In this document: piece after piece, positions 6,935 to 33,107 of the stretch | Layout of the letters: each line of letters starts with the position of its first letter | How positions within the stretch are numbered: position 1 is the first letter of the stretch | Source of the DNA: a virus | Reading direction: 5' to 3' (one strand) | DNA length: 33,107 bases | IMG/VR virus record: IMGVR_UViG_3300030085_002040 | Span: 1-33,107 of that record | The notes under the pieces: model-generated | Database searches by the model: none | Seen by the model: the letters and a program-made list of their open reading frames with translations, nothing else | Told to the model about the DNA's origin: nothing | Made by a program: the position numbers and the translations under genes

Positions 6935-9900
6935 ATGTCGCAGCAGTTGAACAGCAAATATTACGAAAAGGATGATGTCATCCTAGTACAGACTCTTGGT
7001 ACTGTCGCAAAGGACGTTGCGGCAAATTCTTGGGTATTTAACTCTGCCACAAGTTATAAAGCAGAGAAACTTGAACTGATCAATTCTGCTAGTTACAGAT
7101 ATAGAGCAACTTTAACGTCTGAGCACATCTTCAAGGTTGGAGATAAGATTTCTATCACTGGAAGTGGTGGACTGAATGTTACTGGAAAGATATATTCTGT
7201 AACTGGAGCAAAAGAGGTTACTTTTGGCGATCAGGGTAATCTTGGTTCCTATCCTGCTTCATCTTTGACCATCAAGAGAGTTCTGTCAAAAGCAGACTTC
7301 AAAAATTTCGGTGTAGATAACTTAGTTACTGACGTACAGAACGTATATAAAAGAAGAGACGACATTTTAGTAGCAACCTCGTCCCTTCCAAACTTTGACA
7401 CTAAATTACAGACAAAACATCCCATTATAACTTTCAGTGGCACATTCCCACCAACAGGAACTGCTGCAACAGATACTTTTAAGATCGTATCAACAGGTGA
7501 TCATGGTTTTTACACTGGTGATCCTGTTTATTACAAACCACAGGTCATAACAACAACATCTACGGATATTGACGGCAATACTGTCACAACAACTGTTGTC
7601 CAAGATGGTATTGTTGAAGAAGGAATCTATTTCATAAAAAGAACCAACGATCCAACAGAGATTAAGTTAGCAAAAAGTAGAACCGAACTCTATAACAACA
7701 CGTTCATAACTACTGAACCAGTCACTGTTACTGACAACACTCTTGTATATTATGATTTTTATGGAAAAGACCTAGAGAACCAAAAACTGTTTAGAGAGAT
7801 TCCTAAGCAGAATAATAACCTGAATAGAACTGAAACTGTACCTGGATCAAAGAATGCTATCCTTGCAGATGGTGTAGAGGTACTTAACTATAAGTCAACC
7901 GATTTTATTCATTACAATAAATTAGAAAAAATCTTTGTTGACAGTTCTGGTGGCGGTTATGATGTAATTAATCCACCAAATCTTGTAATTTCGGACGTAA
8001 CTGGTATTGGTGCTACTGGACACGTCAGAGTCAATGGAGCATTTGATAGAATTGATCTCCTTAGTGGTGGTTTTGACTATGTTGACGTTCCCACTGTCAC
8101 TATCACTGGAGGTAATGGTCAAGGTGCCACTGCGGATGTAAATACTAGACTTATCACTCATGCAGTAGACTTTAATGCTGAAGCCAAATTTAATCTGGTA
8201 AACTTAACGGACAATAGCATTGGGTTTAACACATATCACAAATTCAGAGATCAAGATAAGGTAATCTACCAGACCAATAGCGGTGATGGTATTACTGGAC
8301 TTGTTACAGGCGCGTCGTACTACGTTTCTGTCGAAAATGCCACTACAGTCAAACTCTACAATAGATATGACGACGCTGTTTCAGGTATTGCTACAGTAGC
8401 ACTGACTGGATATGGTATTGGAAGACATACTCTCCTTGCAGAGAATCCTAAGAGAGTTATAAGTGCAATTAACGTTGTAAATCCAGGAACTGGATATGAA
8501 ACAAACCAGACAACAGTTTCTGGTATATCTACAGCACTGAATCGTCTTACAATCACCGATCACGGATATTCTTCTGGGGAAAAGATTGTATATTCCACTA
8601 GCGAAACAGTTATTGGCGGTCTTACTTCTGGAACAGAATACTATGTCAATGTTGTAGACATCAACACCATTCAATTATCCGAAGTTGGTCCTACAAGTGA
8701 TCCAGAAAAGAATTATAGACAAGCAACATATGTAAATCTTACCACACCATATAGTGGTGTTCATAGTTTCAATTATCCCGCAATTGCAGTAACAGTTTCT
8801 GGCCAGATTGGTATTGGTGGAACTATTTCTGTAGATGACTATAGAGCGACATTCAATCCTGTTGTTACGGGAGAAATCACTGCGGTAAACCTGGAAGATA
8901 AGGGAGTTGGTTATGGTTCTTCCGAAGTTATCAATCATATTCGCACACCTGAGGTAATCGTTCAAACTGGATCGGCTGCACAATTAGACCCAGTGGTTGA
9001 TGCCAATGGTCAGATTATTCAAGTAATCGTTCAAAATGGTGGTAAAAACATCAATGCTATTCCAAGAGTTGATGTAGTATCTGATAGTGGATCTGCTTGT
9101 GTTTTAGTTCCAGAGATTTCTGGAGGTCAAATTACTAGAGTTAATATTCTCAACAAAGGATCTGGTTATATCGCTGGAGAAACATCTATCGCTGTAACAT
9201 ATCCTGGAGAAGGTGTTCTCTTTGAACCAGTTCTTCAAACTTGGAATATAAACAATTATCAGAAACATATTGTAAACGTAGAATCCGATGATGGATTTGT
9301 AGATAGTTCTCTTGATTCTGATTATGGCATTCAGTATGTCCATTTGTATAGTCCTAGACTTTTAAGACAGAAACTGTATACAAAAACATTGGATGCGGTA
9401 ACTCTGTATAATAATACAGATCTTGCTCTTGAAAATGGTGCAGAAAAACTAACGTCAAAGAACCACTCTGCAATTATTGGATGGGCCTATGATGGCAATC
9501 CAATTTATGGACCATTTGGTTATATTAACAAGTCTGGTGGCATTGTTGCTCAGATGAGATCTGGGTATGAGTTGTCAATTCAACCTAATAGACCACCCCT
9601 CTCAATCTATCCCGCTGGATTCTTTATAGAAGACTATACTTACATCGCATCTTCCGATGATAGAGTTCTTGATGAAAATAATGGCAGATATTGCGTAACT
9701 CCAGATTTTCCAAATGGAACATACGCTTATTTCTCAACATTAGCAGAGACCACCAATTCCCAAGGTCCTTTTGCAAAATACAAAGAACCACAGTTCCCAT
9801 ATTTGATTGGTAAGTCTTTACATTCCGTTCCTTGTCCTTTTAATTACAAAAAATCTTCCAATCAGGATTCTTATGACATTCAGGCAAATGGTTGGATAAG

Positions 9901-12900
9901 AAACACCAAGTATTACAATCTGGATGAAGATATTGCATCATACCAGTATGTTGAAAGACCATACAAACTCAGTAACAACCAGATTTCGGAAGTTACCTAT
10001 GCTTCACCTGGTTCTATTGATTATGTTGGTATTTTAACTGGCGGAAGAAACTATAAGGTAGATGATGCTCTGGTTTTCCAAGAGGCAGGGACCGATGGAT
10101 TTGGTGTTGACATCAGAGTATCTAAAGTTGGTGGTAAAGAAGTATCGCAGATTAGTTGTGCAACTACTGAGACAAATAATGTTGAGGTTGTTCCTGTAGG
10201 AGCAGGAGAATACTTACTTTATGCAGCAGATCCTCATGGATATACTAAATCTGAACTTGTTTCAATTAGTGGAGTAAGCACTTCAAAAGTTGACCTTGCT
10301 GGTGTCTACAGAGTTGGTATTTCCACAAGATCTTTTGCTTTGAGATCTGCTATTGGAACAGTTGGGGCAACAGGAATCGTAACTTACTTCCCAATCTATG
10401 CAAATGGACTTGATGGCATTGAAGAGAATGATATCTTTGAGGTAGATGATGAAAAAGTCAAGGTTCTCAATATTGACAGAATATCAAGTAGACTTAGAGT
10501 TCTGAGAGAGGTTGCTAGCACAACTGGAGCAGCACATACTGCAGGCGCTCTTGGAAATGAGGATGCTAGAAAGTTCAGTGCTACAATTGGATTTAAAACG
10601 ACCTTTGATTTCCAGCGTAATAGAGAATTGTATTTTGACCCACAAAATGCTGTTGCTATTGGAACGGCAGTTGGCGTAGGAACAACAATCGTATTTGTAA
10701 ATCCTGGATCTGGCGCTACAAATGTATTTGCTCCTGCCAAGAGTCTTTATATTCCAGGACATGGACTGAAGACTGGCGATGAACTGGAATATAACTTGAA
10801 TGGCGGTGCTGGTATCGTTTACAACGAACCAAACAACGTCGGAGTCGCATCTACACTTCAAGATGGTCAGAGAGTCTTTGTTGCAAGACTGACAGACGAC
10901 TTTATTGGTATTGGAACTGTCAAAGTTGGTCTTGGTTCTACAGGAACATTCGTTGGAGTTGGAACTACAACGTCATCCCAAAGCACAGTGTTCTTCACTG
11001 GTGTTGGAACTGGACTGAACCATAGTTTCACTACAGTTTATCCAAATGTGATTACAGTAACCTCTTCTAAGAACGTCGTAACGGTTGCAACTTCATCCAC
11101 TCACGGACTTCAAGCAACAGACACTGTTTTCGTTGACGTAAGACCTTCTATTGCTGCTACCGTAGCAGTATCTTACAATGACTTCAATAGAAGAGTAGTT
11201 ATTAACAAAAAAGATGTCCTTGCTGCTGGCATCTCAACTACTACCAATAAAATTACAATTGCCGATCATGGTTATGACGAAGGTCAAGCATTAATCTATT
11301 CTGCAACAACTCCAGCAGGCGGATTGACTAATCAGGCAATTTACTATGCAATTATCAATGATAAAGATACTATTCAGTTAGCATCTACTTATGAAACTGC
11401 TACAAAGAATGTTCCAACTGTATTGAACATTTCTGAGGCGCAGGATTCTACATTCTCACCAATTAACCCACCAGTTAAACTTTACAAGGATCAGTCTGTA
11501 GAGTTTGACATGTCAGATTCAAGTCTTTCTTTCACGTCAAACAGCATTCAGTATCCTGCGTTTAAGTTGGGTATCTTTATTGATGAAAGATTCACAACAG
11601 AGTACAACAAACCCGAAACCACTGAAGACTTTGATGTTGTTGCAACAGGAACTGTTGGTCTTGATGGTAAAGTGACTCTGACTCTTAGAGAAGAGACTCC
11701 AAAGGTACTTTACTACACTTTGGTTCCAATTAACAATGATACCTTACCAACCAGGAAGTCTGAGGTTATTTGTGATAAGTTGATTTACAATTATAACCAA
11801 CTTCAGGTACTTAATAGCGAATATTCTGGAAAGTATAAAGTCTCTGTCACTACTCCTACAGAATTCCAGTATTTCATACCAGAAGCTCCAGAAAAGAGTT
11901 CATATACTTCTACAAATGGATTGATCAATTATATCACATCATCTAGAACTGGAATTGGATCTATTGCAGAACTTAGAACTTTCAATGGCGGAGTAAACTA
12001 TAAGAAACTCCCAAGAATCTCTAGTGTTACTACTGGAATCGGTTCAAATGCTGCATTTGAAATTTCTAGTGATACAATCGGTGTAGTTCAGAGAACTAGA
12101 TTAAGAAGTATTGGATTTGACTATCCATATGATAAGACTCTGAGACCAAGTGCCAAACTTCCCGAAATTCTTAAGATTGACAAACTTGCAATTCTTGATA
12201 ACGTTGGAGTTACTTCTTATGGTTATGGTTATGGATCTATTGCTCCAAAAGTTCTTCTCTTTGATGGAGAAACTGGAGAACAATCGACAGAAGTTGATCT
12301 TGAATTCAAGTTTGGAACTAATCAACTCACGATTATAAGAAACACATTTGGCATTACTCCTGTAGAACCAACCTTACTTCCAACTGGAAATACTAATGGA
12401 GTTGGCATTTCTTCCTTATCATACAACTCTTCAACCAAAGATGTTTATGTAACCCTGAATACTGGGTTTACTACTGCCAATACCTTCCCATTTGAAGTTG
12501 GCGATAAAGTTATGGTAGAAAGCACCAATGTTGGTATTGCTTCTACTGTCCAAGGTGCTATACAATTTATTCCTACTGGAAAAGGATACAACAGTGAAGA
12601 CTATAACTATAAACTATTCACTCTTACTGCAGTTGATGCGAATGTGGGTGGAATTGGCACAATGGCATTCAATCTTTCGGAGTTCCTTGAAGATGGAGAA
12701 GCGCCAGGTACATTTAATAGTCTGAAATCTGCAGGAAGAATTATTCCAGAAAAGCACTTCCCAACATTTGATGTTGCGTTGACTTCAACTGGATTTATTG
12801 CTGGAGAAGATATTATTTGCTTAGACGATTCCACTATGACGGGTGTTGTTGAGTCTTGGGATGGCGCAAATGGATATCTGAAAGTAAGAACTAGTAAAGA

Positions 12901-15900
12901 GTTCACAGAAGGCCATATCGTCGAAGGTCAGTCTTCTGGTTCTAGAGGAACTATTTCTTCTGCCATCAGATTTGCAGCAAATTATGACGTTGATGCCACA
13001 TCTAGGTTTGAAAACGGATGGGATGACGTAAGTGGATTCCTTAATGATAGTAGACAGGTCATTCAGGATAGCGATTACTATCAGAAGTTCTCTTATGCTC
13101 TGAAGTCTAGAATTGACATGGAAGATTGGGATGAACTTGTCGGTTCATTAAACCATACTTCTGGATTTAAGAGATTCTCTAACTTGGTAGTAGAAACAAC
13201 TGCTGAAGGTGGACCTGCCGTTGTTGGTCTTGGAACGACTACTTACTTCGATAAACTCATCGACTTTATCAGTGATATTGATCTTAATTGCTACTACAAC
13301 TTTGATAATGTAAGAGAAAATAATAAGGACGGACACCATCATGGATTGTCTGATCAGATTATCTTTGAAAATCAAATTCTAACTGATTATTCACAATCAA
13401 CTGGAAATAGAGTTCTTAACGTTGATAATGTTGCAGATACCTTCAACAGCAACCCTAGAGTAACAAGATTCAAAGAGATTGCAGAATGGAATATTGATGA
13501 TGTTAAAGCGAATAAATTTGTAATCTATATCCAAGACGTACAATACAATAATGAAGCAGAACTTGGAATGGTTAGTGTTCTCACTAACGTTGACGCTGAA
13601 GGATACATCAACCAATATGGTGATATTGAAACTGTAGGCCATCTTGGAGACTTTGAATTCTCTGCAACAGGAAACACTGGTCATTTGAGGTTCTACCCAA
13701 CTAAGTGGGAAGACAATAACTACAATGTCTTTGCAGTACAGTATGCTGTTGGCGCAGATGCTGGAGGAATCAATACTCACTTTGGTGGTTCTGTTAATAT
13801 TGAATCTGGATTCACAACTTGTAACCCAGGATCAGCAACCAATATCGTCAGTTTTGGATCAACGTATCAAGCTGCTAAGATTCTTGCAGAAGTCTGCCTT
13901 GCTGATGGAGAGCAAGAATTTGTAGAAATGACTCTTATTCATGATGGTTCTACGGTAGGAATTTCTCAGTATGGTCAACTGTGTAGTACTAGTGGCCCTT
14001 CAAATTATTCCCAGCAAGCAGGATTTGGAACATTCTTCCCATACATTGACGGATCAAATATTAAGATTGACTTTACTCCAGATGCAACTGTCTCGGTTGC
14101 ATGTACTGTTGCAACTAACATTGTTGCAATTTCTTCAGAAGGAGCAGGTATTGGTTCATTCGGTCTGAAGCACGCTGTAATCGGTGCATTTGATCCCGTA
14201 TCAATCTCCGCAAGTGGTTCTCCAACTGCTACCAACATTGCGTTCCATAATAATGACGCATTCAACGGTTGTTATTACATTGTCGAAGTATCTGATCCAG
14301 ACGCCAACCAACACCAGATCTCAGAACTTCTTGTTCTTGATCAAGGACCTGACTTCCCAGGCGTAACCTATCATAATGAATTTGGATATGCTGCTAGTGA
14401 TTTGACTCCAAATAGTGGACTTGGAACCTTTGGAACTGGCATTTCAGGAGACTTTGCAACTCTGACATTCACTCCTGCTGCAAATAGAAATGTTGAGGTT
14501 AGAGGTTTCTATAATCACATTAGAAATATTGATCCAGATGCTGCAGACAACACACTTCTTTTACCTGCATCATACATTAAGTCGCAGTTTGGTCCATACA
14601 CCGCTGCTACCGCTGACGTTAAGAGAGCATTTGGATTGACCTATCAAGGTTACAATGTATTTGAAAGATATGTTGACGCAGAAGATGCAGTTGCTATCGG
14701 TGCCTCTTCTAGTTCTGATGTAGAGGACGCAATCAATCTTCCAAACCACTTCTTTGTAACTGGTGAGAAGATTTCTTATTCAACTTTGGGTGCTGGTACA
14801 ACAGAGAATATTAACATCGCTTCTCAGAATGTAAGTGGTTTTGGAGTTACTGATAAAATGCCTTCTACGGCATATGTCATTAAAGTCGATGCCAACAACA
14901 TCAGACTTACAGATACTCCAACAAAAGCACTTCAAACTATCCCAGAATACTTTGACATTACTTCAGTTGGTATTGGTAATTCTCACAGATTTACAGCAAC
15001 CAATCAGAATGCTAAGTGTCTGATTGCCGTTGATAACTACATCCAATCACCTGTTGTTGGAACAGCAGTTACATTCGCTGTTGTTGATCAACTTCTGTCT
15101 AGTTCTGACGATCTTTACCTTGCAGGCATTACTTCAATCACTGGAGGAGATCTTCTTCAGGTTGAAGATGAGATTATGAAGGTAAGATCAGTTGGTGTTG
15201 GTAGCACTAATGTTGTTTCGGTAGATAGAGCATGGTTGGGAACTCTTCGCGTAACTCACTCTTCTGGAACTGTTGCGACTAAGGTTCAAGGCAACTATAA
15301 CATTGTCAACAACACTCTAAACTTTGTTGAAGCACCTTACGGTAACAATCCACTCTCTACGACTACAAATCCACCAGACGAAAGAGACTGGACGGGTATT
15401 ACTACAAGTTCTACATTCCAAGGAAGAGTGTTCATCAAGAGTGGAACTCCTGGTGCTACAGTTGACACATATTCTAACAACTATGTCTTTGACGATGTAT
15501 CTGAACAGTTCACAGGAACGAATGATAAATTCCCACTCAAATTTGAGGGTTCAAATACGACTGGATACGCAGACGATAATGCATTAGTCTTAATCAATGA
15601 CATTCTGCAGGTTCCTGGACTGAACAATAACTTCACTCTCGCAGAGAATGCAGGAATCACATCAGCATTGTTCATTAATGATGATCAAGTTCCAACCTAT
15701 GACATTAACTCAGTTAATCTTCCTGTTGGTGGCGTAATTGTATCTGTCGGTTCTTCTGAAGGATTTGGTTATCAACCAAGACTAGGAGCAGGCGGTACTG
15801 TAACCGTCTCTGCTGCGGGAACAATCTCCGCAGTTACAATCGGAAGCACAGGTTCTGGTTACAGAGCTGCTGAGTCATATGACATCGAAACCACTATCAC

Positions 15901-18127
15901 AACTACGGTTGCCGCTGGTGCTACAGTAATGACTATCGATAATAAGAATAGCGTCTTCAAGATTCTTGAATTCAATGTCGGTAGTGCTTCCTCAATCGGT
16001 GTTGGAACATTCTTCAGCAGACCCACTCCAATCATTTCTGTCGGAGCAACTTCTGTCAATATTGGAATTGGAAGCACAGCATCCGTTGAAATCCCAGCAG
16101 GAACCACTGCATTCGTCAGAGTCTTCAACCCAACTGTTGGTGTTGCAAGAGTAGGCGTTGCAAGCAGTTCTGTTGGTATCGTTACGACCACACATATTGG
16201 TATTGCTTCTATTAGTGGCGGTCACCTGCTCCCAACAGTTCATATTACAAGCGTTGGTAGTGGTTATACTAGCACGATCCCACCAATGGTCAATGTTGAA
16301 GAACCTCTTGCTTATGACAACATTCCTCTGATCTATCAGACTGACGGTCTTGCAGAAGCATCTACGGGTGTTGGTACACAAGCAAAACTTACCTTCAATG
16401 TTGGATTTGGATCTGAAATTACTGACTTTGAATTATCAAATACTGGATTTGGATATGCTCCAGGTCAGACTCTTACAATCCCAACTGGAGGAGCAACTGG
16501 AATTCCTACAGATCCAACTCTTGGTGGAGACTTTAGAAGATTCTCTCTTGAAGTTAAGAAGCAGTTTACCGATAAGTTCTCTGCTTGGAGTGTAGGAGAA
16601 CTCCAAACACTAGATAATTTTGCTAGTGAGTTTGATGGTGTCACTAAGGACTTCCAGTTGAGAATTGCAGGCAATATTACGTCAATTATTGCTGCTCAGG
16701 GATCGCCAATTAATGTTCAAGATGTTCTGATTGTTCTTTATAACAACATCCTGCAAATTCCTGGAGAAGGTTATCAGTTTGAAGGTGGTAGCACGATCAT
16801 CTTCCCAGAACCACCAAAACCTGGCGATACTTGCGAAATTCTCTTCTACAGAGGAAATGGTGACGTTGACGTACAGGATATTGATATTCTTGAGACTGTC
16901 AAAGAAGGCGATACTCTCCAGATTGTAAATGACACATCTCGTGGTCAGACAATCTATCTGGAAGAAGATCCAAGACTTGTTTATAGCGTAGATGCAACCG
17001 ACAGAGTTACAACTAATGCATATTATGGTCCTGGCAATACTTCAGATATTAATTTGGAAAGACCAGTAATCTGGTGTAAGCAAACCGAAGACGTAGTAAT
17101 CAACGGTAAGAGAGTTGCAAAAGATAGACCTCAATACAAGGCAAATATCTTCCCAACCACAAATATTATTCAAACTGTTGGAGTTGGTTCTACTACAATA
17201 TATGTCGAAAATGTACGTCCTCTGTTCACGCAGGCAAATGAAAATGATACCTCTGTCGTATTCCAAAAAGATCTCCTGCTGATTTCACAAGACGCAAGAG
17301 TTGGTGCTTCTGCTACCGCAATTGTCGGAACTGCTGGATCAATCACATCAATCGCTATCAGTGATGGTGGTGTTGGTTATACAACTGCCCCAACGGTTAC
17401 TATTGGCAACCCAGTCGGTCTTGGTTCTGATCAAAGACAGACTGCAACTGCAACAATCACTAATGGCGTTGTTACTGCAGTCAATCTTGGAACTGCTAAG
17501 ACTGGATATGCATCGACAACTCCTCCCGTAGTTCTTATTGAACCTCCTACACCTCTGATCGAAAGAATTAACGCAGGAATCACCTTCGCGGGCGACTTTG
17601 GAACTATCGTTGGCGTTACAACAACAAACGTCGGTGTTGCAACTGGACTCGTCTTCCAGTTCTTCATTCCAAATGATTCCCCATTCAAGGATGCTACGCT
17701 TGTAGGAACTGCTGACACTGTATCTACAATTGCCGCAGGTGACTTCTTCGTTGTCAGTGAGTCCAACATTGGTCTTGGCGTAACTTCACTCAAACCAGGT
17801 GGAGTAGTTGCAGTCGGTGTCGGAACCACTTGTATCGACAACGTATATGAAGCGGTATCAGTAGCACAGGCACAAAAGACTCTGCCTGGATATGGTCAGA
17901 CAACTGTAGTCAACGTTACGGTCAGCGTCTTAAGTTACAATGGTTATGACTTCTCTTCACTTGGAGTCAATACACACTTCGGTAATTATAGTTTCGGTAA
18001 GATTGAAACTGCAGGAAGAACATCCACATTACCATTCAATTCATACTTGGATAATGGTCTGACTGGACTGTCAACTTCTGCACAACTTAGAAGAACTCTG
18101 CCACTGAAGATTTCCAATTACGGGTAA
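6935..18127 (+). CDS. giant modular virion protein (baseplate periphery), 3730 residues
   Basis: One uninterrupted frame between gp7 and gp8, so most likely an outer baseplate or fibre-network protein. In order I see: HG-x-GD-Y modules (~182-256, 426-485, 533-586, 1437-1489, 2600-2667); GxGY beta repeats (~338-403, 510-530, 647-761, 1676-1778, 2931-2990, 3097-3186, 3471-3547); and a YHYH-like segment DGNPIYGPFGY at 853-863. Further on are a segment with DSDYYQKFSYALKSR (~2045), GNRVLNVDN (~2155) and three tandem ~120-residue repeats (2193-2530). A GFP/IG-E module lies at 2717-2784. Two gp10-like NNILQIPG/NDILQVPG modules are at ~2864-2918 and ~3238-3315. There is no signal peptide, membrane segment or enzymatic motif. 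T4 has nothing of this size here; multi-kilobase structural ORFs are known in cyanophages. The start has only a weak AAGG ribosome site. Confidence 0.85.
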   Translation: MSQQLNSKYYEKDDVILVQTLGTVAKDVAANSWVFNSATSYKAEKLELINSASYRYRATLTSEHIFKVGDKISITGSGGLNVTGKIYSVTGAKEVTFGDQGNLGSYPASSLTIKRVLSKADFKNFGVDNLVTDVQNVYKRRDDILVATSSLPNFDTKLQTKHPIITFSGTFPPTGTAATDTFKIVSTGDHGFYTGDPVYYKPQVITTTSTDIDGNTVTTTVVQDGIVEEGIYFIKRTNDPTEIKLAKSRTELYNNTFITTEPVTVTDNTLVYYDFYGKDLENQKLFREIPKQNNNLNRTETVPGSKNAILADGVEVLNYKSTDFIHYNKLEKIFVDSSGGGYDVINPPNLVISDVTGIGATGHVRVNGAFDRIDLLSGGFDYVDVPTVTITGGNGQGATADVNTRLITHAVDFNAEAKFNLVNLTDNSIGFNTYHKFRDQDKVIYQTNSGDGITGLVTGASYYVSVENATTVKLYNRYDDAVSGIATVALTGYGIGRHTLLAENPKRVISAINVVNPGTGYETNQTTVSGISTALNRLTITDHGYSSGEKIVYSTSETVIGGLTSGTEYYVNVVDINTIQLSEVGPTSDPEKNYRQATYVNLTTPYSGVHSFNYPAIAVTVSGQIGIGGTISVDDYRATFNPVVTGEITAVNLEDKGVGYGSSEVINHIRTPEVIVQTGSAAQLDPVVDANGQIIQVIVQNGGKNINAIPRVDVVSDSGSACVLVPEISGGQITRVNILNKGSGYIAGETSIAVTYPGEGVLFEPVLQTWNINNYQKHIVNVESDDGFVDSSLDSDYGIQYVHLYSPRLLRQKLYTKTLDAVTLYNNTDLALENGAEKLTSKNHSAIIGWAYDGNPIYGPFGYINKSGGIVAQMRSGYELSIQPNRPPLSIYPAGFFIEDYTYIASSDDRVLDENNGRYCVTPDFPNGTYAYFSTLAETTNSQGPFAKYKEPQFPYLIGKSLHSVPCPFNYKKSSNQDSYDIQANGWIRNTKYYNLDEDIASYQYVERPYKLSNNQISEVTYASPGSIDYVGILTGGRNYKVDDALVFQEAGTDGFGVDIRVSKVGGKEVSQISCATTETNNVEVVPVGAGEYLLYAADPHGYTKSELVSISGVSTSKVDLAGVYRVGISTRSFALRSAIGTVGATGIVTYFPIYANGLDGIEENDIFEVDDEKVKVLNIDRISSRLRVLREVASTTGAAHTAGALGNEDARKFSATIGFKTTFDFQRNRELYFDPQNAVAIGTAVGVGTTIVFVNPGSGATNVFAPAKSLYIPGHGLKTGDELEYNLNGGAGIVYNEPNNVGVASTLQDGQRVFVARLTDDFIGIGTVKVGLGSTGTFVGVGTTTSSQSTVFFTGVGTGLNHSFTTVYPNVITVTSSKNVVTVATSSTHGLQATDTVFVDVRPSIAATVAVSYNDFNRRVVINKKDVLAAGISTTTNKITIADHGYDEGQALIYSATTPAGGLTNQAIYYAIINDKDTIQLASTYETATKNVPTVLNISEAQDSTFSPINPPVKLYKDQSVEFDMSDSSLSFTSNSIQYPAFKLGIFIDERFTTEYNKPETTEDFDVVATGTVGLDGKVTLTLREETPKVLYYTLVPINNDTLPTRKSEVICDKLIYNYNQLQVLNSEYSGKYKVSVTTPTEFQYFIPEAPEKSSYTSTNGLINYITSSRTGIGSIAELRTFNGGVNYKKLPRISSVTTGIGSNAAFEISSDTIGVVQRTRLRSIGFDYPYDKTLRPSAKLPEILKIDKLAILDNVGVTSYGYGYGSIAPKVLLFDGETGEQSTEVDLEFKFGTNQLTIIRNTFGITPVEPTLLPTGNTNGVGISSLSYNSSTKDVYVTLNTGFTTANTFPFEVGDKVMVESTNVGIASTVQGAIQFIPTGKGYNSEDYNYKLFTLTAVDANVGGIGTMAFNLSEFLEDGEAPGTFNSLKSAGRIIPEKHFPTFDVALTSTGFIAGEDIICLDDSTMTGVVESWDGANGYLKVRTSKEFTEGHIVEGQSSGSRGTISSAIRFAANYDVDATSRFENGWDDVSGFLNDSRQVIQDSDYYQKFSYALKSRIDMEDWDELVGSLNHTSGFKRFSNLVVETTAEGGPAVVGLGTTTYFDKLIDFISDIDLNCYYNFDNVRENNKDGHHHGLSDQIIFENQILTDYSQSTGNRVLNVDNVADTFNSNPRVTRFKEIAEWNIDDVKANKFVIYIQDVQYNNEAELGMVSVLTNVDAEGYINQYGDIETVGHLGDFEFSATGNTGHLRFYPTKWEDNNYNVFAVQYAVGADAGGINTHFGGSVNIESGFTTCNPGSATNIVSFGSTYQAAKILAEVCLADGEQEFVEMTLIHDGSTVGISQYGQLCSTSGPSNYSQQAGFGTFFPYIDGSNIKIDFTPDATVSVACTVATNIVAISSEGAGIGSFGLKHAVIGAFDPVSISASGSPTATNIAFHNNDAFNGCYYIVEVSDPDANQHQISELLVLDQGPDFPGVTYHNEFGYAASDLTPNSGLGTFGTGISGDFATLTFTPAANRNVEVRGFYNHIRNIDPDAADNTLLLPASYIKSQFGPYTAATADVKRAFGLTYQGYNVFERYVDAEDAVAIGASSSSDVEDAINLPNHFFVTGEKISYSTLGAGTTENINIASQNVSGFGVTDKMPSTAYVIKVDANNIRLTDTPTKALQTIPEYFDITSVGIGNSHRFTATNQNAKCLIAVDNYIQSPVVGTAVTFAVVDQLLSSSDDLYLAGITSITGGDLLQVEDEIMKVRSVGVGSTNVVSVDRAWLGTLRVTHSSGTVATKVQGNYNIVNNTLNFVEAPYGNNPLSTTTNPPDERDWTGITTSSTFQGRVFIKSGTPGATVDTYSNNYVFDDVSEQFTGTNDKFPLKFEGSNTTGYADDNALVLINDILQVPGLNNNFTLAENAGITSALFINDDQVPTYDINSVNLPVGGVIVSVGSSEGFGYQPRLGAGGTVTVSAAGTISAVTIGSTGSGYRAAESYDIETTITTTVAAGATVMTIDNKNSVFKILEFNVGSASSIGVGTFFSRPTPIISVGATSVNIGIGSTASVEIPAGTTAFVRVFNPTVGVARVGVASSSVGIVTTTHIGIASISGGHLLPTVHITSVGSGYTSTIPPMVNVEEPLAYDNIPLIYQTDGLAEASTGVGTQAKLTFNVGFGSEITDFELSNTGFGYAPGQTLTIPTGGATGIPTDPTLGGDFRRFSLEVKKQFTDKFSAWSVGELQTLDNFASEFDGVTKDFQLRIAGNITSIIAAQGSPINVQDVLIVLYNNILQIPGEGYQFEGGSTIIFPEPPKPGDTCEILFYRGNGDVDVQDIDILETVKEGDTLQIVNDTSRGQTIYLEEDPRLVYSVDATDRVTTNAYYGPGNTSDINLERPVIWCKQTEDVVINGKRVAKDRPQYKANIFPTTNIIQTVGVGSTTIYVENVRPLFTQANENDTSVVFQKDLLLISQDARVGASATAIVGTAGSITSIAISDGGVGYTTAPTVTIGNPVGLGSDQRQTATATITNGVVTAVNLGTAKTGYASTTPPVVLIEPPTPLIERINAGITFAGDFGTIVGVTTTNVGVATGLVFQFFIPNDSPFKDATLVGTADTVSTIAAGDFFVVSESNIGLGVTSLKPGGVVAVGVGTTCIDNVYEAVSVAQAQKTLPGYGQTTVVNVTVSVLSYNGYDFSSLGVNTHFGNYSFGKIETAGRTSTLPFNSYLDNGLTGLSTSAQLRRTLPLKISNYG
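13511..14522 (+). repeat. three tandem ~120-residue repeats within the giant protein
   Basis: Protein-level tandem repeats start near 13511, 13871 and 14267. Each has an opening strand (KFVIYIQDV / KILAEVCLAD / YYIVEVSDPD), a central strand with EMTLIHDG or ELLVLDQG, a tyrosine turn (QYG / QYG / YHN) and a closing LRFYP, IDFTP or LTFTP. Units are 120 and 132 codons apart. Copy 1 is the most diverged. Confidence 0.65.
15083..15286 (+). repeat. GFP-IG-E beta module in the giant protein
   Basis: Codes for giant-protein residues 2717-2784: LYLAGITSITGGDLLQVEDE, then VSVDRAWLGTLRVTHSSGT. It preserves the lead strand, the x-VEDE-I core, and the R-x-x-x-GT...H-x-x-GT closing pattern seen in gp15 and the DUF4815 protein. 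Confidence 0.6.
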
Positions 18128-27554: not shown

Positions 27555-28400
27555 ATGGCACAACCATCTACCAGGCAGGAGTTAATTGACTACTGCAAAA
27601 GACAACTTGGATATCCTGTTCTTGAGATCAACGTTGCTGATGAGCAAATTGACGACTTGGTAGATGACGCTATTCAGTATTTTCAAGAAAGACACTTTGA
27701 CGGCGTATACGAAGCATATTATAAGTATAAAATAACTCAAGCAGATATTGATAGAGGTAGAACTAGAGGCGGAAATAATCCTGTAGGTATCGCTACGACT
27801 ACAGCAACGACAAGTATTGTTGGAACTGCCACTACCTTTACCTACGAAGAAAATAGCAACTACTTACAAGTTCCTCCAAACGTAATTGGAGTTACTAAGT
27901 TGTTCCACTTTGACGGAACAAACACAGTCACTAACAACATGTTTAGTGTTAGATATCAGATGTTTTTGAATGATATCTATTACTGGGGTGCAACAGAGAT
28001 GTTGACCTATGCAATGACGAAGACATATCTGGAAGATATTAATTTCTTATTGACCACGGACAAACAGATAAGATTTAATAAACGTCAAGATAGATTGTAT
28101 CTGGACCTTGACTGGTCTGCAGTCAGCGTTGACGACTATCTGATTATTCAGTGTCACTCGACATTAGATCCAAATGATTATGCAAGAGTCTACAATGACT
28201 CATTCCTCAAACCATACCTTACCGCATTGATCAAGAGGCAGTGGGGAATGAATATGATGAAGTTTACTGGAGTCAAACTCCCAGGTGGAGTTGAGTTGAA
28301 CGGTAGACAGATGTATGACGATGCTGAAAAAGACATAGAAAAGATAATGGAGAAAATGTCAAATACTTATGAACTTCCTCCATTCGACATGATCGGTTAA
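27555..28400 (+). CDS. 13: neck protein gp13
   Basis: A 281-residue homologue of T4 gp13 (309 residues), which with gp14 forms the neck ring closing the filled head and joining it to the tail. The N-terminus is typical of the family: STRQELIDYCKRQLGYPVLE, then INVADEQIDDLVDDAIQYFQ and ERHFDGVYEAYYKYKIT. Later segments YYWGATEMLTYAMTK and LDWSAVSVDDYLIIQCH also fit. Residues ~75-95 (TTTATTSIVGTATTF) are a short low-complexity stretch. AAGGAG (27539-27544) is the ribosome site. gp14 begins 4 bases after the stop. Confidence 0.95.
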   Translation: MAQPSTRQELIDYCKRQLGYPVLEINVADEQIDDLVDDAIQYFQERHFDGVYEAYYKYKITQADIDRGRTRGGNNPVGIATTTATTSIVGTATTFTYEENSNYLQVPPNVIGVTKLFHFDGTNTVTNNMFSVRYQMFLNDIYYWGATEMLTYAMTKTYLEDINFLLTTDKQIRFNKRQDRLYLDLDWSAVSVDDYLIIQCHSTLDPNDYARVYNDSFLKPYLTALIKRQWGMNMMKFTGVKLPGGVELNGRQMYDDAEKDIEKIMEKMSNTYELPPFDMIG

Positions 28401-28404
28401 TACT

Positions 28405-29832
28405 ATGGCACTTAATCCCTTCTTTCTACAAGGTGCTCCGTCAGAACAGAATCTGATTCAGGACTTAATCAACGAACAACTCCGCATGTATGGGGTTGAA
28501 GTTCATTATATGCCTAGGAGATATGTCACAGAAAAGACTGTGATTAGAGAGGTTATTGAGTCCGAATTCAAAGACGCATATCCTATTGAGGCATATGTAG
28601 AAAACTTTGAGGGATATGGGGACCAGACAACCATTCTCTCAAAGTTTGGTATTCAATCAACGCAAGAAATAACTCTTACAATCTCCAAAGAGAGATATGA
28701 GGCATATATTTCTCCTCTGATGAGAGGGCAGGAAGATATCAAACTCAGTACAAGACCCAAAGAAGGTGATCTGATTTACTTCCCTCTTGGGGACAGACTC
28801 TTTGAAATTAAGTTTGTAGAACATGAGAAACCCTTCTACCAACTACAGAAGGGATATGTCTACACTCTGAAATGTGAAATGTTCAGATACGGTAATGAAG
28901 TTATCGATACTGATGTTGATGAAATTGATGATACTATTACAAGCAGTCTTGTCGATGAAGATGGCGATGGAATTGTAGAAGGAAGTGCGTTTACAAGAGT
29001 CCTTAATCTCCTTGGAGCAGGAACCACAGCAACTGCTACTGTTTCCGAAATCTGTGACGGTGGTATTAGATTTATCAACGTAACCAACAGAGGTGGCGGA
29101 TATACTTACAACCCAAGAGTTGGTATTTCTTCTTCTCCAACTGCAGGTAAGAGTGGTATTGCTACCGCTACAAGAATTGCGAATATTGTTGCATGTGAAC
29201 TGAATGTCAACCCAGGATCACAATCAGTTCAGAGAGTTGATATTATCAATCCTGGTTGCGGATATACCCAACCACCAGGAATTAGATTTATTGGTGATGG
29301 TGTAGGCGCAGCAGCAACTTCTGCAATTGGTAACGGAGTTGCTAGTGGAGTCATTTCCATCACGGATGGTGGTTCTGGTTATATCCAGTCACTGCCACCT
29401 ACAGTTACCTTCAGTGGAGTTGCTACTGTATCTGCTGCTGCAACTGCTGTTGTTAGTGCTGCAGGTACGATTAGTGCTATTCGCTATACAAACTCTGGTT
29501 TGGGATACACCGCTGTACCTACAATCACGATTGGAGCACCAAACCTGACTGGTATTGGAACCTATCAGAAGAACGAAACCGTCACAGGTTCTTCTTCAGG
29601 AACTACAGCAGTTGTTGTTTCTTGGACCGCTTCTACAAATAAACTGGAAGTATTCAGAGCAACTGGAGACTTTACGGTAGGGGAGCAAATTGTTGGAGCA
29701 GCTTCTTCTGCAAGTTATAAACTCAACACTACAACATTCCCCGAAAGTGGATTTACTTCCAATCAAGAAATCGAAGACGCAGCAGATAATATCATTGATT
29801 TTACCGAAACAAATCCATTCGGTATGCCTTAA
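28405..29832 (+). CDS. 14: neck protein gp14 with ~240-residue beta-module insertion
   Basis: A 475-residue homologue of T4 gp14 (256 residues). The N-terminal ~175 residues match the T4 core: QLRMYGVEVHYMPRRYV, VENFEGYGDQTTILSKFGIQ and PKEGDLIYFPLGDRLFEI (T4 has PKEGDLIYFPMDNSLFEI), then PFYQLQKG. The last residues (DFTETNPFGMP) resemble the acidic T4 end (SSPFDNDFMD). Between them are four GxGY repeats (INVTNRGGGYTYNPRV, VDIINPGCGYTQPP, ISITDGGSGYIQSLPP, YTNSGLGYTAVP; about 224-372) and one SSG module (~390-442, ETVTGSSSGTTAVVVSW, then GDFTVGEQIVGAASS). These are not in T4 gp14. The insert probably projects from the neck. Confidence 0.92.
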   Translation: MALNPFFLQGAPSEQNLIQDLINEQLRMYGVEVHYMPRRYVTEKTVIREVIESEFKDAYPIEAYVENFEGYGDQTTILSKFGIQSTQEITLTISKERYEAYISPLMRGQEDIKLSTRPKEGDLIYFPLGDRLFEIKFVEHEKPFYQLQKGYVYTLKCEMFRYGNEVIDTDVDEIDDTITSSLVDEDGDGIVEGSAFTRVLNLLGAGTTATATVSEICDGGIRFINVTNRGGGYTYNPRVGISSSPTAGKSGIATATRIANIVACELNVNPGSQSVQRVDIINPGCGYTQPPGIRFIGDGVGAAATSAIGNGVASGVISITDGGSGYIQSLPPTVTFSGVATVSAAATAVVSAAGTISAIRYTNSGLGYTAVPTITIGAPNLTGIGTYQKNETVTGSSSGTTAVVVSWTASTNKLEVFRATGDFTVGEQIVGAASSASYKLNTTTFPESGFTSNQEIEDAADNIIDFTETNPFGMP

Positions 29833-29834
29833 CC

Positions 29835-29841
29835 CTAAATA
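29835..29841 (+). promoter_or_regulatory. late promoter motif before gp15
   Basis: CTAAATA begins 2 bases after the gp14 stop and ends 23 nt before the gp15 ATG. The spacing is like that of the other late motifs here. No good ribosome binding site is visible between it and the start codon. Confidence 0.6.
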
Positions 29842-29864
29842 ATTGTTAAACAAGAACCAAAACG

Positions 29865-30869
29865 ATGTTTGAGTATTTTTATAACGAAATTTTTAGGAGG
29901 ACCATTATATCATTCGGTTCTCTGTTTAACGAAATTTCAATCAAGCAGGAGAACTCTTCTGGCAATACTGTAAATGACTTTAGGGTTCCTTTGGCGTATG
30001 GTCCTACGCAAAAGTTTTTAGCAAGATTAAATCAACAACCAGACTTAAACAAGTCTACTTCTTTGACATTGCCTAGAATGTCATTTGAGTTTGTTGGTCT
30101 TGAATATGATCCAAGCAGAAAGTTACAGCAGACTCAGACTTTTAAGAAAGGTTCGGTTTCAGACCCCACTCAAATTCAGAAGGTCTATACTCCAGTTCCA
30201 TACAATATGAATTTTGAACTGGCAATCTTCACTAAGTTGAATGATGATATGTTGCAGATAGTAGAACAGATTCTGCCATATTTTCAACCACACTACAATA
30301 TGACTCTCAATCTTGTAGAGACGATTGGTGAGAAGAAAGATGTCCCAGTCGTTCTCAATAGCATTGATATGAATGATGACTATGAGGGAGACTTCACTAC
30401 AAGAAGAGCACTTATCTACACTCTGAGATTTTCTGCGAAGACTTACCTCTACGGTCCTGTTGCCTCTGCAAGCAGCGATATCATTACCAAGGCAACTGTC
30501 GGGTATGTTGCTGGTTCTACAGGCGGCACAGAGTACAGCAGAGACCTCTCATACAGAGTTACACCAAGGGCGATCAAGAACTACACAGGAACAGTTCTTT
30601 CCAACCTCACTGACGATATCACCCTTGGTGCAACAGTCATCAAGGTTGATGATCCAACCGCATTCACCGCAGATACTTATGTTGAGATTGACGGAGAGGC
30701 AGTATACATCACGGATGTTACTGACGAAAGCATCAAGGTCAAGAGAGGTCAGGATAATACGACTGCCAGCCAGCACCTCAGAGGAGAACCTGTCAAGTCT
30801 ATTACGGCGGCAGACGATGCACTCATTCCTGCAGGCGACGACTTTGGTTTCAGCGTAGATTACATCTGA
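29865..30869 (+). CDS. 15: tail sheath stabiliser / tail completion protein gp15
   Basis: A 334-residue homologue of T4 gp15 (272 residues), the hexameric ring that caps the tail tube and sheath and docks to the neck. It starts FEYFYNEIFRRTIISFGSLF (T4: FGYFYNSSFRRYATLMGDLF). It also has YNMNFELAIFTKLNDDMLQI followed by VEQILPYFQPHYN, nearly identical to T4 (VEQILPYFQPHFN). The T4-like core ends around RVTPRAIKNYTGT (~240). A GFP/IG-E beta module follows at 245-313 (ATVIKVDDPTAF, YVEIDGEAVYITDV, VKRGQDNTTASQHLRGEPV). The module-coding DNA looks richer in G+C than the core: one 60-base line at 30661 has 26 G/C, one at 29881 has 18. Confidence 0.95.
   Translation: MFEYFYNEIFRRTIISFGSLFNEISIKQENSSGNTVNDFRVPLAYGPTQKFLARLNQQPDLNKSTSLTLPRMSFEFVGLEYDPSRKLQQTQTFKKGSVSDPTQIQKVYTPVPYNMNFELAIFTKLNDDMLQIVEQILPYFQPHYNMTLNLVETIGEKKDVPVVLNSIDMNDDYEGDFTTRRALIYTLRFSAKTYLYGPVASASSDIITKATVGYVAGSTGGTEYSRDLSYRVTPRAIKNYTGTVLSNLTDDITLGATVIKVDDPTAFTADTYVEIDGEAVYITDVTDESIKVKRGQDNTTASQHLRGEPVKSITAADDALIPAGDDFGFSVDYI
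30597..30803 (+). repeat. GFP-IG-E beta module at the gp15 C-terminus
   Basis: Codes for gp15 residues 245-313, after the T4-like core. It keeps the lead strand ATVIKVDDPTAF, the core IDGEAVYIT and the closing VKRGQDNTTASQHLRGEPV, with the RG and H-x-x-G positions seen in the other copies. Confidence 0.65.
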
Positions 30870-30876
30870 TAGGACA

Positions 30877-31320
30877 ATGAAAATGACGAAACAGTTTGAT
30901 GAACTCAATGAAACTTTTGATGTTGCAGGAGACATCGTATCCTCAGAACCAGTAAAAGACACTCCAAAACCTGTCCCAACTTCGGCATCTTCTACAGATG
31001 ATATAAAGAAAGATTATGAATATACCAGAGGTAATTTATATTCTATTATCGAAAAGGGACAGGAAGCAATCAACGGCATTCTAGAACTCGCTCAAGAGAG
31101 TGAGATGCCTAGAGCATATGAAGTTGCAGGTCAGTTAATCAAGAACGTTGCAGACGCAACTGATAAGTTGATGGAGTTGCAGAAGAAACTCAAAGATGTT
31201 GAAGAAGAGACAGTTGCTAAGGGTCCAACAAACGTTACTAATGCACTGTTTGTAGGATCCACTGCAGAATTATCAAAACTACTTAAGAACCAGGGTAAAG
31301 ACCAAGACCAATCTAAATAG
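30877..31320 (+). CDS. 16: terminase small subunit gp16
   Basis: A 147-residue homologue of T4 gp16 (164 residues), the ring protein that recognises concatemeric DNA and regulates the gp17 packaging motor. The central two helices are diagnostic: DYEYTRGNLYSIIEKGQEAI, then GILELAQESEMPRAYEVAGQ and LIKNVADATDKLMELQKKLK. The C-terminal NVTNALFVGSTAEL matches T4 NIQNATVFMGSPTEL. AGGA (30871-30874) is only 2 nt from the ATG at 30877 but 8 nt from a second in-frame ATG at 30883, so the shorter 145-residue form may be the true product. gp17 does not follow; small genes and a fibre-like gene do. Confidence 0.92.
   Translation: MKMTKQFDELNETFDVAGDIVSSEPVKDTPKPVPTSASSTDDIKKDYEYTRGNLYSIIEKGQEAINGILELAQESEMPRAYEVAGQLIKNVADATDKLMELQKKLKDVEEETVAKGPTNVTNALFVGSTAELSKLLKNQGKDQDQSK
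31313..31319 (+). promoter_or_regulatory. late promoter motif overlapping the gp16 stop
   Basis: CTAAATA (31313-31319) overlaps the TAG stop of gp16 (31318-31320) and ends 14 nt before the next ATG at 31334. AGGA (31328-31331) is the likely ribosome site. The motif-to-start distance is shorter than at other genes. Confidence 0.5.
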
Positions 31321-31333
31321 TTAAAAAAGGATC

Positions 31334-31669
31334 ATGGCAGCGAATCCAGTCATTAACATTACTATTCCTCAGGGTGCAAATTTTGAGGAGACTTTTCAGT
31401 CCACTGAATCGAATGGATCTGCATCCAATCTTTCTGGATATAGTGGAGAAGCAAAGGTAAAGAAACATCCTGCTGCAACTGAATCCACCGCTTTCTCAGT
31501 CAATATCACTGCTGGAACAGGTGAAGTTGCAATCGCCATGACTAGTGGGGTAACAGGAACTCTTTCTCCAGGTCGTTATTTGTATGACGTTAGATTAACG
31601 TCTTCTGCTGGAACTAAAACTAGACTAGTAGAAGGGATGGCACTCGTAACCGCAGGTATTAGCACGTAA
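31334..31669 (+). CDS. small beta-sandwich-like structural protein
   Basis: A 111-residue protein: INITIPQGANFEETFQ, LSGYSGEAKVKKHP, GTGEVAIAMTSGVT, then LSPGRYLYDVRLTSSAGTKT and RLVEGMALV. The pattern of IPQG, a charged strand, a G-E-V strand and GxYxYDV followed by RLVEG resembles small immunoglobulin-like phage proteins found next to fibre genes (as in the N-terminal domain of some baseplate upper proteins). No enzymatic motif. It stands first in the fibre-side cassette after gp16, so a fibre-attachment or decoration role is plausible but unproven. Confidence 0.75.
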   Translation: MAANPVINITIPQGANFEETFQSTESNGSASNLSGYSGEAKVKKHPAATESTAFSVNITAGTGEVAIAMTSGVTGTLSPGRYLYDVRLTSSAGTKTRLVEGMALVTAGIST

Positions 31670-31674
31670 AAACT

Positions 31675-32016
31675 ATGCCAGTAGTCAGAAAAGCATCAGT
31701 CGCAAATAGAGTTGTTCTAAAGCAAGAATCAACGGATTCTAGTAGCAGAAGTAGAAGAGTATCCTTACAAAGAGCAGCGGCTCAAATGACCGATCTTGGT
31801 GATGTCAGTCTCACTAGTCTTGGATCAGGGCAAGACGGACATGTTTTAATCTATGATTCTGATCTTGATAAATTTAAGTTAGTTGATCCTGATGTTGTAC
31901 TGAGCGCATCTGTAGACGATAACGATCTGCCCGATACTTTCATCGAACAACTTGAAGACGAACTCAATCTTGGAAACATTCAAATTGATGAGATTGATGG
32001 TGGAGGATTTGTCTGA
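31675..32016 (+). CDS. small virion-associated protein, tandem paralogue A
   Basis: A 113-residue protein starting 5 bases after the previous stop. The first ~37 residues are basic and serine-rich (STDSSSRSRRVSLQRAAAQ). The remaining ~75 match the whole of the next protein: LGDVSLTSLGSGQDGHVLIY, FKLVDPDVVL, DNDLPDTFIEQLEDELNLGN, IDEIDGGGF. The L-x-D...LGSGQDGHVLIYD pattern resembles linker motifs in phage fibres. TGATG joins it to the next gene with a one-base overlap. Function unknown; probably a partner of the neighbouring fibre. Confidence 0.75.
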   Translation: MPVVRKASVANRVVLKQESTDSSSRSRRVSLQRAAAQMTDLGDVSLTSLGSGQDGHVLIYDSDLDKFKLVDPDVVLSASVDDNDLPDTFIEQLEDELNLGNIQIDEIDGGGFV

Positions 32017-32255
32017 TGGCATCTCTAAGGAGTTTAGAAGATACTAATTTTGGCACTCTTGGTAGTTCTAAAAACAAACATTTAGTCGTATACGACTCAT
32101 CTCAAGGGGCATTTGTGGTGAAATCTATGGATGATGTTCTCGCATCAACTCAAGTTCTAGACGGCGACTTACCTGACGATTTTGTTACTCAAATTGAAAA
32201 CGAAATTGATATAAGTGAAATGGAATTGGGAGAGGTAGACGCAGGTACTTTCTAA
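32016..32255 (+). CDS. small virion-associated protein, tandem paralogue B
   Basis: A 79-residue protein that aligns end to end with the C-terminal ~75 residues of the preceding protein: LEDTNFGTLGSSKNKHLVVY, FVVKSMDDVL, DGDLPDDFVTQIENEIDISE, LGEVDAGTF. It lacks the basic N-terminal extension of paralogue A. The start overlaps the upstream stop (TGATG), so the pair is translationally coupled and probably made in similar amounts, perhaps as a hetero-oligomer. Function unknown. Confidence 0.75.
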   Translation: MASLRSLEDTNFGTLGSSKNKHLVVYDSSQGAFVVKSMDDVLASTQVLDGDLPDDFVTQIENEIDISEMELGEVDAGTF

Positions 32256-32266
32256 GTATAATCTGA

Positions 32267-32274
32267 TATAAATA
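32267..32274 (+). promoter_or_regulatory. late promoter before the fibre-like gene
   Basis: TATAAATA, an exact T4 late -10 element, ends 25 nt before the ATG at 32300. A sigma70-like TATAAT also occurs at 32257-32262, without a convincing -35. Confidence 0.75.
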
Positions 32275-32299: not shown

Positions 32300-33107
32300 A
32301 TGGCGGCTCCCGTAATTCAGTTTAAGAGAGGCCTCCTTGCAAATCTCCCTGGATTAAGGGCAGGTGAACCAGGCTTTACTACCGATGCTTATGATCTCTA
32401 CGTCGGCATCGACTCTACCACTAATAACAACCAATTCGTAGGTTCTGGTAGATATTGGTCAGTCAATACCAACAGCGTTGGTAGTGGCGTCAAACTTGTA
32501 GAAGGTACAGATAACGGTACGAATGCCGTTACCATTAAGTCACCTAACTCCCTGGCAGCAAGTTATACGCTGACCATGCCTGCGGATGACGGTGATAACG
32601 GTGACGTTCTTACCAGTGATGGTTCTGGTAACCTGTCTTTCGCTGCACCCGCTGCTTCCAGTTTTACACTTGCTGCTGACTCTGGTTCTAATGATACTTT
32701 CAACACTGGTGGTACTTTAACATTTGCTGGTACTGCAAACGAAGTTGAGACTACAGTATCTAACGATCAGATCCAAATTGGTCTTCCTGATAACGTTACC
32801 GTTGGTGGAAATCTCACAGTAACCACCACTCTGGATGTCAACGGTTCAGACCATGATATTGCTGGCGCTATTGCACTGGATCATGTAACTGTATCTGGTA
32901 TCACTACCGTCACTGGTGCTATTGATGGTAACGGTGGTGCTAATATCTCTGGTGCAGAGACAGTCCTTTCTTCGGCAACTGTTAGTGACCTGACTGATAA
33001 CCGTGTTGTTATCGCTGGTTCTTCAGGTGCTCTGGAAGATGATGCAAACCTGACCTTTGACGGATCCACTCTGGCACTTGGTGCTGCACTGGATGTCAAT
33101 GGCGACG
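32300..33107 (+). CDS. fibre-like protein, N-terminal 269 residues (runs off window)
   Basis: The frame is open from the ATG at 32300 to the window end, so the product is truncated here. The N-terminus IQFKRGLLANLPGLRAGEPG followed by FTTDAYDLYVGID resembles the N-terminal domain of phage fibre proteins such as the Mtd N-terminal type (QFRRG...GEpGf.tD...iG). It continues with LTMPADDGDNGDVLTSDGSG and then beta strands of the form VGGNLTVTTTLDVNGS, GAIALDHVTVSGITTVTG and TLALGAALDVNG, typical of repeat-built fibre shafts. Its DNA looks richer in G+C than the baseplate genes (29 G/C in the 60 bases from 32581, 17 in the 60 from 3481). It has its own late promoter. Receptor binding is likely. 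Confidence 0.85.
   Translation, partial: MAAPVIQFKRGLLANLPGLRAGEPGFTTDAYDLYVGIDSTTNNNQFVGSGRYWSVNTNSVGSGVKLVEGTDNGTNAVTIKSPNSLAASYTLTMPADDGDNGDVLTSDGSGNLSFAAPAASSFTLAADSGSNDTFNTGGTLTFAGTANEVETTVSNDQIQIGLPDNVTVGGNLTVTTTLDVNGSDHDIAGAIALDHVTVSGITTVTGAIDGNGGANISGAETVLSSATVSDLTDNRVVIAGSSGALEDDANLTFDGSTLALGAALDVNGD

Follow-up and report, generated by a model that had tools for sequence, protein, structure and literature searches.

The window, the whole stretch of DNA analysed here, comprises 33,107 nucleotides and forms part of an IMG/VR virus record whose full length is 33,446 bases. Homologues of gp13, gp14, gp15 and gp16 are followed in it by a gene designated P0003, two small genes designated A and B, and a fibre gene (Table 1). 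This gene order is of the T4-like cyanophage type, and the source virus is regarded as a marine cyanobacterial phage. A tandem of small genes beside the fibre gene had been placed at 31675–32255 in the initial annotation, and both open reading frames were confirmed at these coordinates. The largest open reading frame of the window (3730 residues, 6935–18127) lies 5′ of frames of 518 and 2513 residues, and in most loci the gp14 homologues (28405–29832 in the window) have NPFG followed by two residues as their C-terminus.

Table 1. Features of the region from the gp13 homologue to the end of the window (positions counted from its first nucleotide)
Feature	Position	Strand	Basis
gp13–gp16 homologues	27555–31320		Named after annotated relatives of like gene order
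P0003, collar protein homologue of T5 p132 / DT57C LtfC (Ig-like)	31334–31669	+	PHROG 3304, PDB profile matches, AF2 fold
Gene A, 113 aa: N-terminal anchor (proposed), fibre-type core, C-terminal tail	31675–32016	+	BLASTP, PHROG 13853, 37-member alignment
A residues 1–35, basic extension, proposed collar anchor	31675–31779	+	B alignment begins at A residue 36
A C-terminal tail IDGGGFV	31993–32013	+	Loose tail pattern, 30/30 distinct pair A
GGAGG within A tail codons, Shine–Dalgarno candidate, 9 nt 5′ of B start	32002–32006	+	21/27 distinct A tails
Gene B, 79 aa: core and tail, without anchor	32016–32255	+	ORF call, BLASTP
B C-terminal tail VDAGTF	32235–32252	+	Loose tail pattern, 28/28 distinct B
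TATAAATA, late-promoter-like site between B and fibre	32267–32274	+	Similar sites in relatives
Fibre 1, cut by contig end, Mtd_N-like head at N-terminus	32300–33107	+	Pfam PF18454

The relation that had been claimed between the two small products is borne out by pairwise alignment. BLASTP aligns residues 36–112 of A with residues 2–79 of B, with 30/79 positions identical (38 %), 50/79 similar and an E value of 2e-16 for a single comparison, and a search of A against its own 33,446-base record returned B as the sole other match (E 1.6e-14). On these alignments A and B are classed as true paralogues. The overlap reported at TGATG is present, the stop codon of A and the start codon of B sharing one base (32014–32018), and the basic Ser/Arg extension attributed to one copy is indeed confined to the N-terminus of A and absent from B.

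The Synechococcus phages S-B43, RN05-S and S-B05 also have the A–B tandem, as do many IMG/VR contigs. When the collar protein P0003 was used for a profile scan, 80 loci were obtained, and among these and the loci collected earlier (repeats of one contig included) a homologous A–B pair is present in 31, with an overlap of 1 nt between the two genes in 28 loci and of 4 nt in the other 3. Pair loci have the order gp16–collar–A–B–fibre. The phages DSL-LC02, P-HM1 and P-SSM2 are among the relatives that have A in one copy and lack B; in single-A loci the cassette lies mostly before gp13 and in some after gp16. Within a clade of T4-like cyanophages the tandem is retained, with A and B both under purifying selection (dN/dS 0.20–0.32 for A and 0.19–0.30 for B, five pairs each). 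A, B and single A group strongly in a tree of 80 rows and 107 columns (5 label changes, against a minimum of 2 and 37.6 in shuffles), which is too short to prove a single duplication and includes long branches for A1_L005 and A1_L105. In every alignment seen, B was without the anchor.

The collar gene 5′ of the pair, as well as the tail shared by A, B and the fibre family, had been overlooked in the initial annotation. P0003 matches PHROG 3304, labelled 'L-shaped tail fiber protein assembly' (E 1.4e-25), and a profile of 43 P0003 homologues matched T5 p132 (PDB 7qg9_R, E 7.5e-5) and DT57C LtfC (8hqz_Q, E 1.5e-5); no Pfam family was matched at E 1. The AlphaFold2 (AF2) model of P0003 (pLDDT 88.4) has its best fold matches in 7qg9_L and 8hqz_T (Z 12.1, rmsd 2.1 Å, 109 residues, 21–23 % identity), the first non-phage chain appearing at Z 9.4, and further matches include neck chains of Sf14 (Z 9.8) and Bas63 (Z 9.6). 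Both the profile and the predicted fold identify P0003 as a member of the T5 p132/LtfC-type collar family in T4-like phages. The Sf14 neck is reported to bear whiskers (PMC11821841), so that the collar may lie on the virion either close to the baseplate or at the neck.

In T5, the L-shaped fibres are reported to be carried by the p132 dodecamer, and the N-terminal portion of pb1, some 50 residues, may account for density seen between the p132 subunits (PMC10038345); in DT57C, the N-termini of LtfA are described as contributing β-strands to the LtfC ring (PMC10713586). The T5 genes T5.136/T5.135 adjoin ltf. They were read here as one frameshifted p132/LtfC collar gene (L026 10056–10480, AY543070), and the DT57C paper likewise treats them as one frameshifted gene (PMC10713586). 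In the loci studied here, the gap between collar gene and A has a median of 1 nt (64 loci). The P0003 homologue of S-CREM2 (ORF84) is reported to have been detected in virions by mass spectrometry (PMC10665884), and in that genome it is followed by a long tail fibre gene of 4971 residues. The collar homologue of S-SCSM1, a phage described in PMC9602691, bears the depositor's label 'virion protein'.

In other phages, a long fibre follows the collar gene directly, in place of the small A. Single-copy A was matched at the N-terminus by 8 of 9 post-collar long proteins from IMG/VR (best E value of each between 0.004 and 9.6e-9) and by the 1020-residue fibre of HTVC008M (63 residues, E 2e-5); the long protein of locus L067 and S-CREM2 gp85 gave no N-terminal match to single-copy A. 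Because A-type N-termini recur at the start of long post-collar fibres, A resembles a fibre base that has become detached. In phage B23, gp320 (L005 5644–6207) combines a collar domain and an A domain in one protein ending in DLGEY; the next product, gp321, ends in DMGEY and is followed by a tail fibre.

PHROG 13853, which has no function label, is matched by A (E 4.9e-4), by the single A of DSL-LC02 (E 7.4e-8) and by the C-terminal part of B23 gp320 (E 9.2e-4). B from the window had no PHROG match at E 1, and a scan of viral contigs with B as a single protein found no relative. Neither A nor B matched a Pfam family at E 1, tail-fibre chaperones of the T4 gp38 or Tfa type included, a result that is compatible with a chaperone as well. 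Searches of PDB sequences yielded a phosphate acetyltransferase for A at E 0.32, rejected as a chance match, and RelB3 at E 0.36 for the A profile, with nothing useful. For A, AF2 yielded a weak model (pLDDT 64, pTM 0.32), with strands at residues 57–61 and 66–70, helices at 72–80 and 87–96, loose ends, and an N-terminus (pLDDT 51–57) without confident structure.

A, B and the family of the following fibre have a common C-terminal tail, xDGGx[FY]-stop. Both tails in the window fit [DNE]x[GA]x[FYW] with the aromatic residue last or next to last. Tails were counted in distinct sequences in a strict form ([DN]GGx[FYW], aromatic last or next to last) and a loose form ([DNE][GASCLMEY][GA]x[FYW]). 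The strict and loose forms were found, respectively, in 27/30 and 30/30 of pair A, 20/28 and 28/28 of B, 18/22 and 21/22 of single A, and 24/30 and 25/30 of fibre 1, compared with 0/284 and 2/284 of the collar and gp13–gp16 proteins. The 23 of 586 distinct remaining open reading frames that carry the strict tail are module genes by listing (fibres, fused fibres and a small post-fibre protein). Complete homologues of fibre 1 in L006 and L007 end in TIDGGSF. In the whole genome of S-B43 (214 kb), DGGxF-stop occurs at three sites only, namely the ends of A, B and fibre 1, and the reversed pattern is absent from that genome.

Several further matches to the tail pattern were set aside, being antisense in PHM1_170 rather than at a gene end (P-HM1 147428), antisense in annotated genes (S-SCSM1 170065 and 50190) or intergenic (S-SM1 29656). 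At S-SCSM1 208822, a 'virion protein' gene ends in DAGFY, which may be either chance or a real tail. In L029 (3270–10158), L037 and L038, fibre 1 is split into two open reading frames, the distal piece bearing a DGG/DAGxF tail where its end is readable (L029 and L037). A small protein encoded after fibre 1 (L001 8435–8671, L036, L046 and L051) ends, depending on the phage, in DGGTFE, DGGSFE or DDGGTF, or else in a looser acidic-F form.

The tail codons of A also appear to have a function at the DNA level. In the window, 31999–32018 spans both the GGAGG-bearing tail codons and the overlapping start of B, and among distinct sequences GGAGG is found in the tail codons of 21/27 pair A genes, 7/26 B genes, 5/21 single A genes and 1/24 fibre genes. 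In most pairs, the tail codons of A are thus read as also serving B as a ribosome-binding site, and the combination of GGAGG and overlap points to translational coupling of A and B. The last A or B is mostly separate from the fibre gene, the median gap being 36 nt, and a site resembling TATAAATA lies at most 60 nt after B in 21/26 pairs. The copy of TATAAATA in the window is one that we take to be a T4-type late-promoter-like site, and the fibre would appear to have such a site of its own.

At the other end of the fibre, residues 6–36 match Pfam PF18454 (Mtd_N, Major tropism determinant N-terminal domain) with E 3.8e-8 and 33.6 bits, above the curated cut-off of 26.3. A head profile grown iteratively from fibre-1 N-termini of the same loci gathered 204 matches; Pfam Mtd_N was matched by 10/47 head representatives, the heads of second fibres lying mostly outside the Pfam model. 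We know of no described partner of the tail kind for the Mtd_N domain.

The neighbourhood of tails and heads was examined from both directions. When IMG/VR was scanned for tail DNA alone, 79 loci were analysed among 80 listed of 120 stretches; 74/79 of the tail-DNA matches analysed proved to be in-frame gene ends, and the proteins carrying the tail were mostly fibres. A head was encoded in the next gene, or after a small protein, in 56 of the 64 readable cases (27/29 clusters), compared with 16/209 (12/160 clusters) for controls, which were untailed genes of at least 150 residues from the same loci. Tailed proteins with unrelated N-termini also precede heads. In L125 and L318, a tailed protein of 166 residues (MPIFRGK...) lies 5′ of a head gene; in L125 it is preceded by a tailed, 1607-residue protein that has an A-like match, and one tailed protein can therefore come after another.

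When the head-bearing genes of all loci are taken together, those with a tail are followed by a head in 50/69 cases and those without one in 6/59, 19/69 of the tailed genes having no adjacent head gene; after clustering, the proportions are 22/29 and 5/41. With clusters represented by tail-selected loci they become 18/18 and 4/31, a comparison that flatters the rule, since six head genes from tail-selected loci that have no head next to them (L130, L140, L143, L164, L182 and L183) were merged into earlier representatives. Conversely, loci were picked by the second-fibre head alone (80 listed, 78 analysed, 66 readable; 11 were without a near upstream gene and 1 without an open reading frame, and the tail form used there also permits A for G). 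Among the loci listed, a tailed protein was found just upstream of the head in 51/66 (54 with the loose form; 41/52 distinct) versus 1/224 other genes, and none of the complete second-fibre head genes had a tail of its own. In L249 and L257, the order is collar (identified there from its N-terminus), tailed A and head fibre, with no fibre 1 between. The gene after the last A or B, in pair or single form, has a head in 45/48 distinct cases, the exceptions being L052, L072 and L105. All these comparisons are given as counts, since P values drawn from them would take no account of shared ancestry. From these gene orders, the tail looks like a mark of the gene ahead of the next fibre piece, resembling a general plug-and-socket rule for fibre building.

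Exceptions are frequent in the arrangement with the collar before gp13, in which the head gene is not adjacent in 7/11 tailed clusters (collar-selected loci). Where the cassette precedes gp13, a second head was also sought directly after gp16 and was not found there. The second head lies elsewhere in DSL-LC02, in a collagen-like protein (44755–47376), and in P-SSM2 (PSSM2_293), and directly after a small protein in P-HM1 (PHM1_095). When the head profile was run on 12 complete genomes, two heads each were found in S-B43, S-B05, DSL-LC02, P-HM1 and P-SSM2, whose A and fibre 1 carry tails of the form DGGxF or NGGxF, and one in B23, which has variant tails. No head was detected in S-CAM1, S-CREM2 and S-SM2, in which no tail was found, and S-SM1, HTVC008M and S-SCSM1, without a clear tail, have one head each. 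Heads are not used only with tails; yet none of the six tailed complete genomes (0/6) is without a head.

The reading favoured here, with a probability of roughly 0.58, is that A and B are small adaptors of a fibre-attachment module, in which the collar is followed by A/B and then by a putative tail-to-head docking of fibre segments. The initial annotation had suggested a two-subunit adaptor for the following fibre. The adaptor part of that suggestion fits the collar gene 5′, the fibre-type N-termini and the head-bearing fibre 3′; two subunits are not the rule, since many relatives carry a single A without B and some have A fused to a fibre, and the two-subunit form is a derived state.

According to this model, the upstream gene product would be a T5 p132/LtfC-type collar subunit that forms a ring, and the N-terminal extension of A would dock on it in the way that LtfA N-termini add β-strands to the LtfC ring, a proposal for which the shared N-termini also provide a basis. 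The core and C-terminal DGGxF tail of A would face outward from the collar. The tails of A and B would plug into the Mtd_N-like head of fibre 1, the DGGxF tail of fibre 1 would take the head of fibre 2, and fibre 2, distal and tailless, would end the chain. A and B probably link the ring to the fibres. B would be a duplicate of A that lost the anchor and kept the core and tail. Having a core and a tail, with neither anchor nor head, it would most likely co-assemble with A in a mixed oligomer, and each adaptor would then have fewer anchors than tails; a simple A–B–fibre stack does not account for a headless B. More tentatively, and at slightly below even odds, the DGGxF tail and the Mtd_N-like head may constitute two halves of a docking code that operates in many phages, far outside this family too, chaining fibre segments and seating them on collar adaptors. 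A and B would then be the collar-side entry points, and unequal duplication (anchor lost, plug kept) would tune the number of fibres per collar. The neighbourhood counts alone fit docking and co-evolved gene sets alike.

The latter ambiguity bears on the suggestion that the tail serves in folding or trimer capping and has no docking role, being found before heads only because fibre genes come in sets. Such a role would suit a tail borne mostly by fibres and the tailed genes that have no adjacent head gene. It is nevertheless judged unlikely, since untailed head-bearing fibres are followed by a head far less often than tailed ones, complete second-fibre genes among the loci listed are all tailless, tailed proteins with unrelated N-termini also precede heads, and the small A and B bear the same tail. 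The tail could also be explained by its GG codons being kept for the DNA, as the Shine–Dalgarno sequence of the next gene, an account prompted by the frequency of GGAGG in A tails and by the start of B lying 1–4 nt inside the end of A. D-G-G-x-F is kept in B, single A and fibre tails that seldom contain GGAGG, and the last A or B is mostly separated from the fibre gene, so that this explanation is very improbable; as a general cause of the tail it is refuted by the GGAGG counts, and it holds for A only, as a second function.

Two further proposals concern what A and B do rather than what the tail is for, and both are considered quite improbable. A and B are small and adjoin the fibre gene, and the upstream family is labelled as an assembly protein, all of which would agree with dedicated fibre assembly chaperones that are not in the virion. 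The upstream protein, however, is a structural collar by homology, its S-CREM2 homologue is reported from virions, and in other phages N-termini like that of A form a covalent part of the fibre. B might instead be a redundant duplicate, A alone being the adaptor, as the retention of the rest of the cassette by single-A relatives without B would allow; against this, none of the 31 pair loci lacks B, which is under purifying selection and always without the anchor in the alignments seen.

The adaptor model places this locus beside T5 p132 with pb1 and DT57C LtfC with LtfA, which are alike in collar sequence and predicted fold and in having the fibre-side gene directly after the collar. In T5 and DT57C the fibre is attached via the N-terminus of the next protein, and the same arrangement is proposed here for A. 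Unlike in those phages, the fibre-side protein is here a separate adaptor of 65–131 aa, duplicated in one clade and equipped with a C-terminal tail, and the phage is T4-like, with gp13–gp16 neighbours. A fibre stacked from segments is also described for the A-1(L) neck fibre gp82–gp81–gp80, which is reported to start from a trimer anchored in the neck, continue through repeated links and end in a distal piece (PMC10966104), a likeness compared by description only; the A-1(L) links are described as N-terminal β-hairpins on the previous trimer, unlike the C-terminal tails found here (PMC10966104). Stacked fibre segments are thus already known, and the open-access literature yielded no description of the tail, a fibre C-terminal motif, Mtd_N docking or a tail-to-head rule.

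Host range is set by fibre genes, and the joining of fibre pieces is usually unreadable from sequence. If the proposed rule is true, a six-residue tail would make fibre partner assignment testable and the order of fibre parts readable from sequence, and it would help to explain the exchange of fibre cassettes between phages. It would also provide a function for families listed as unknown, such as PHROG 13853. The T5 fibre–collar architecture would be extended to T4-like cyanophages, with support from the published virion proteome of S-CREM2.
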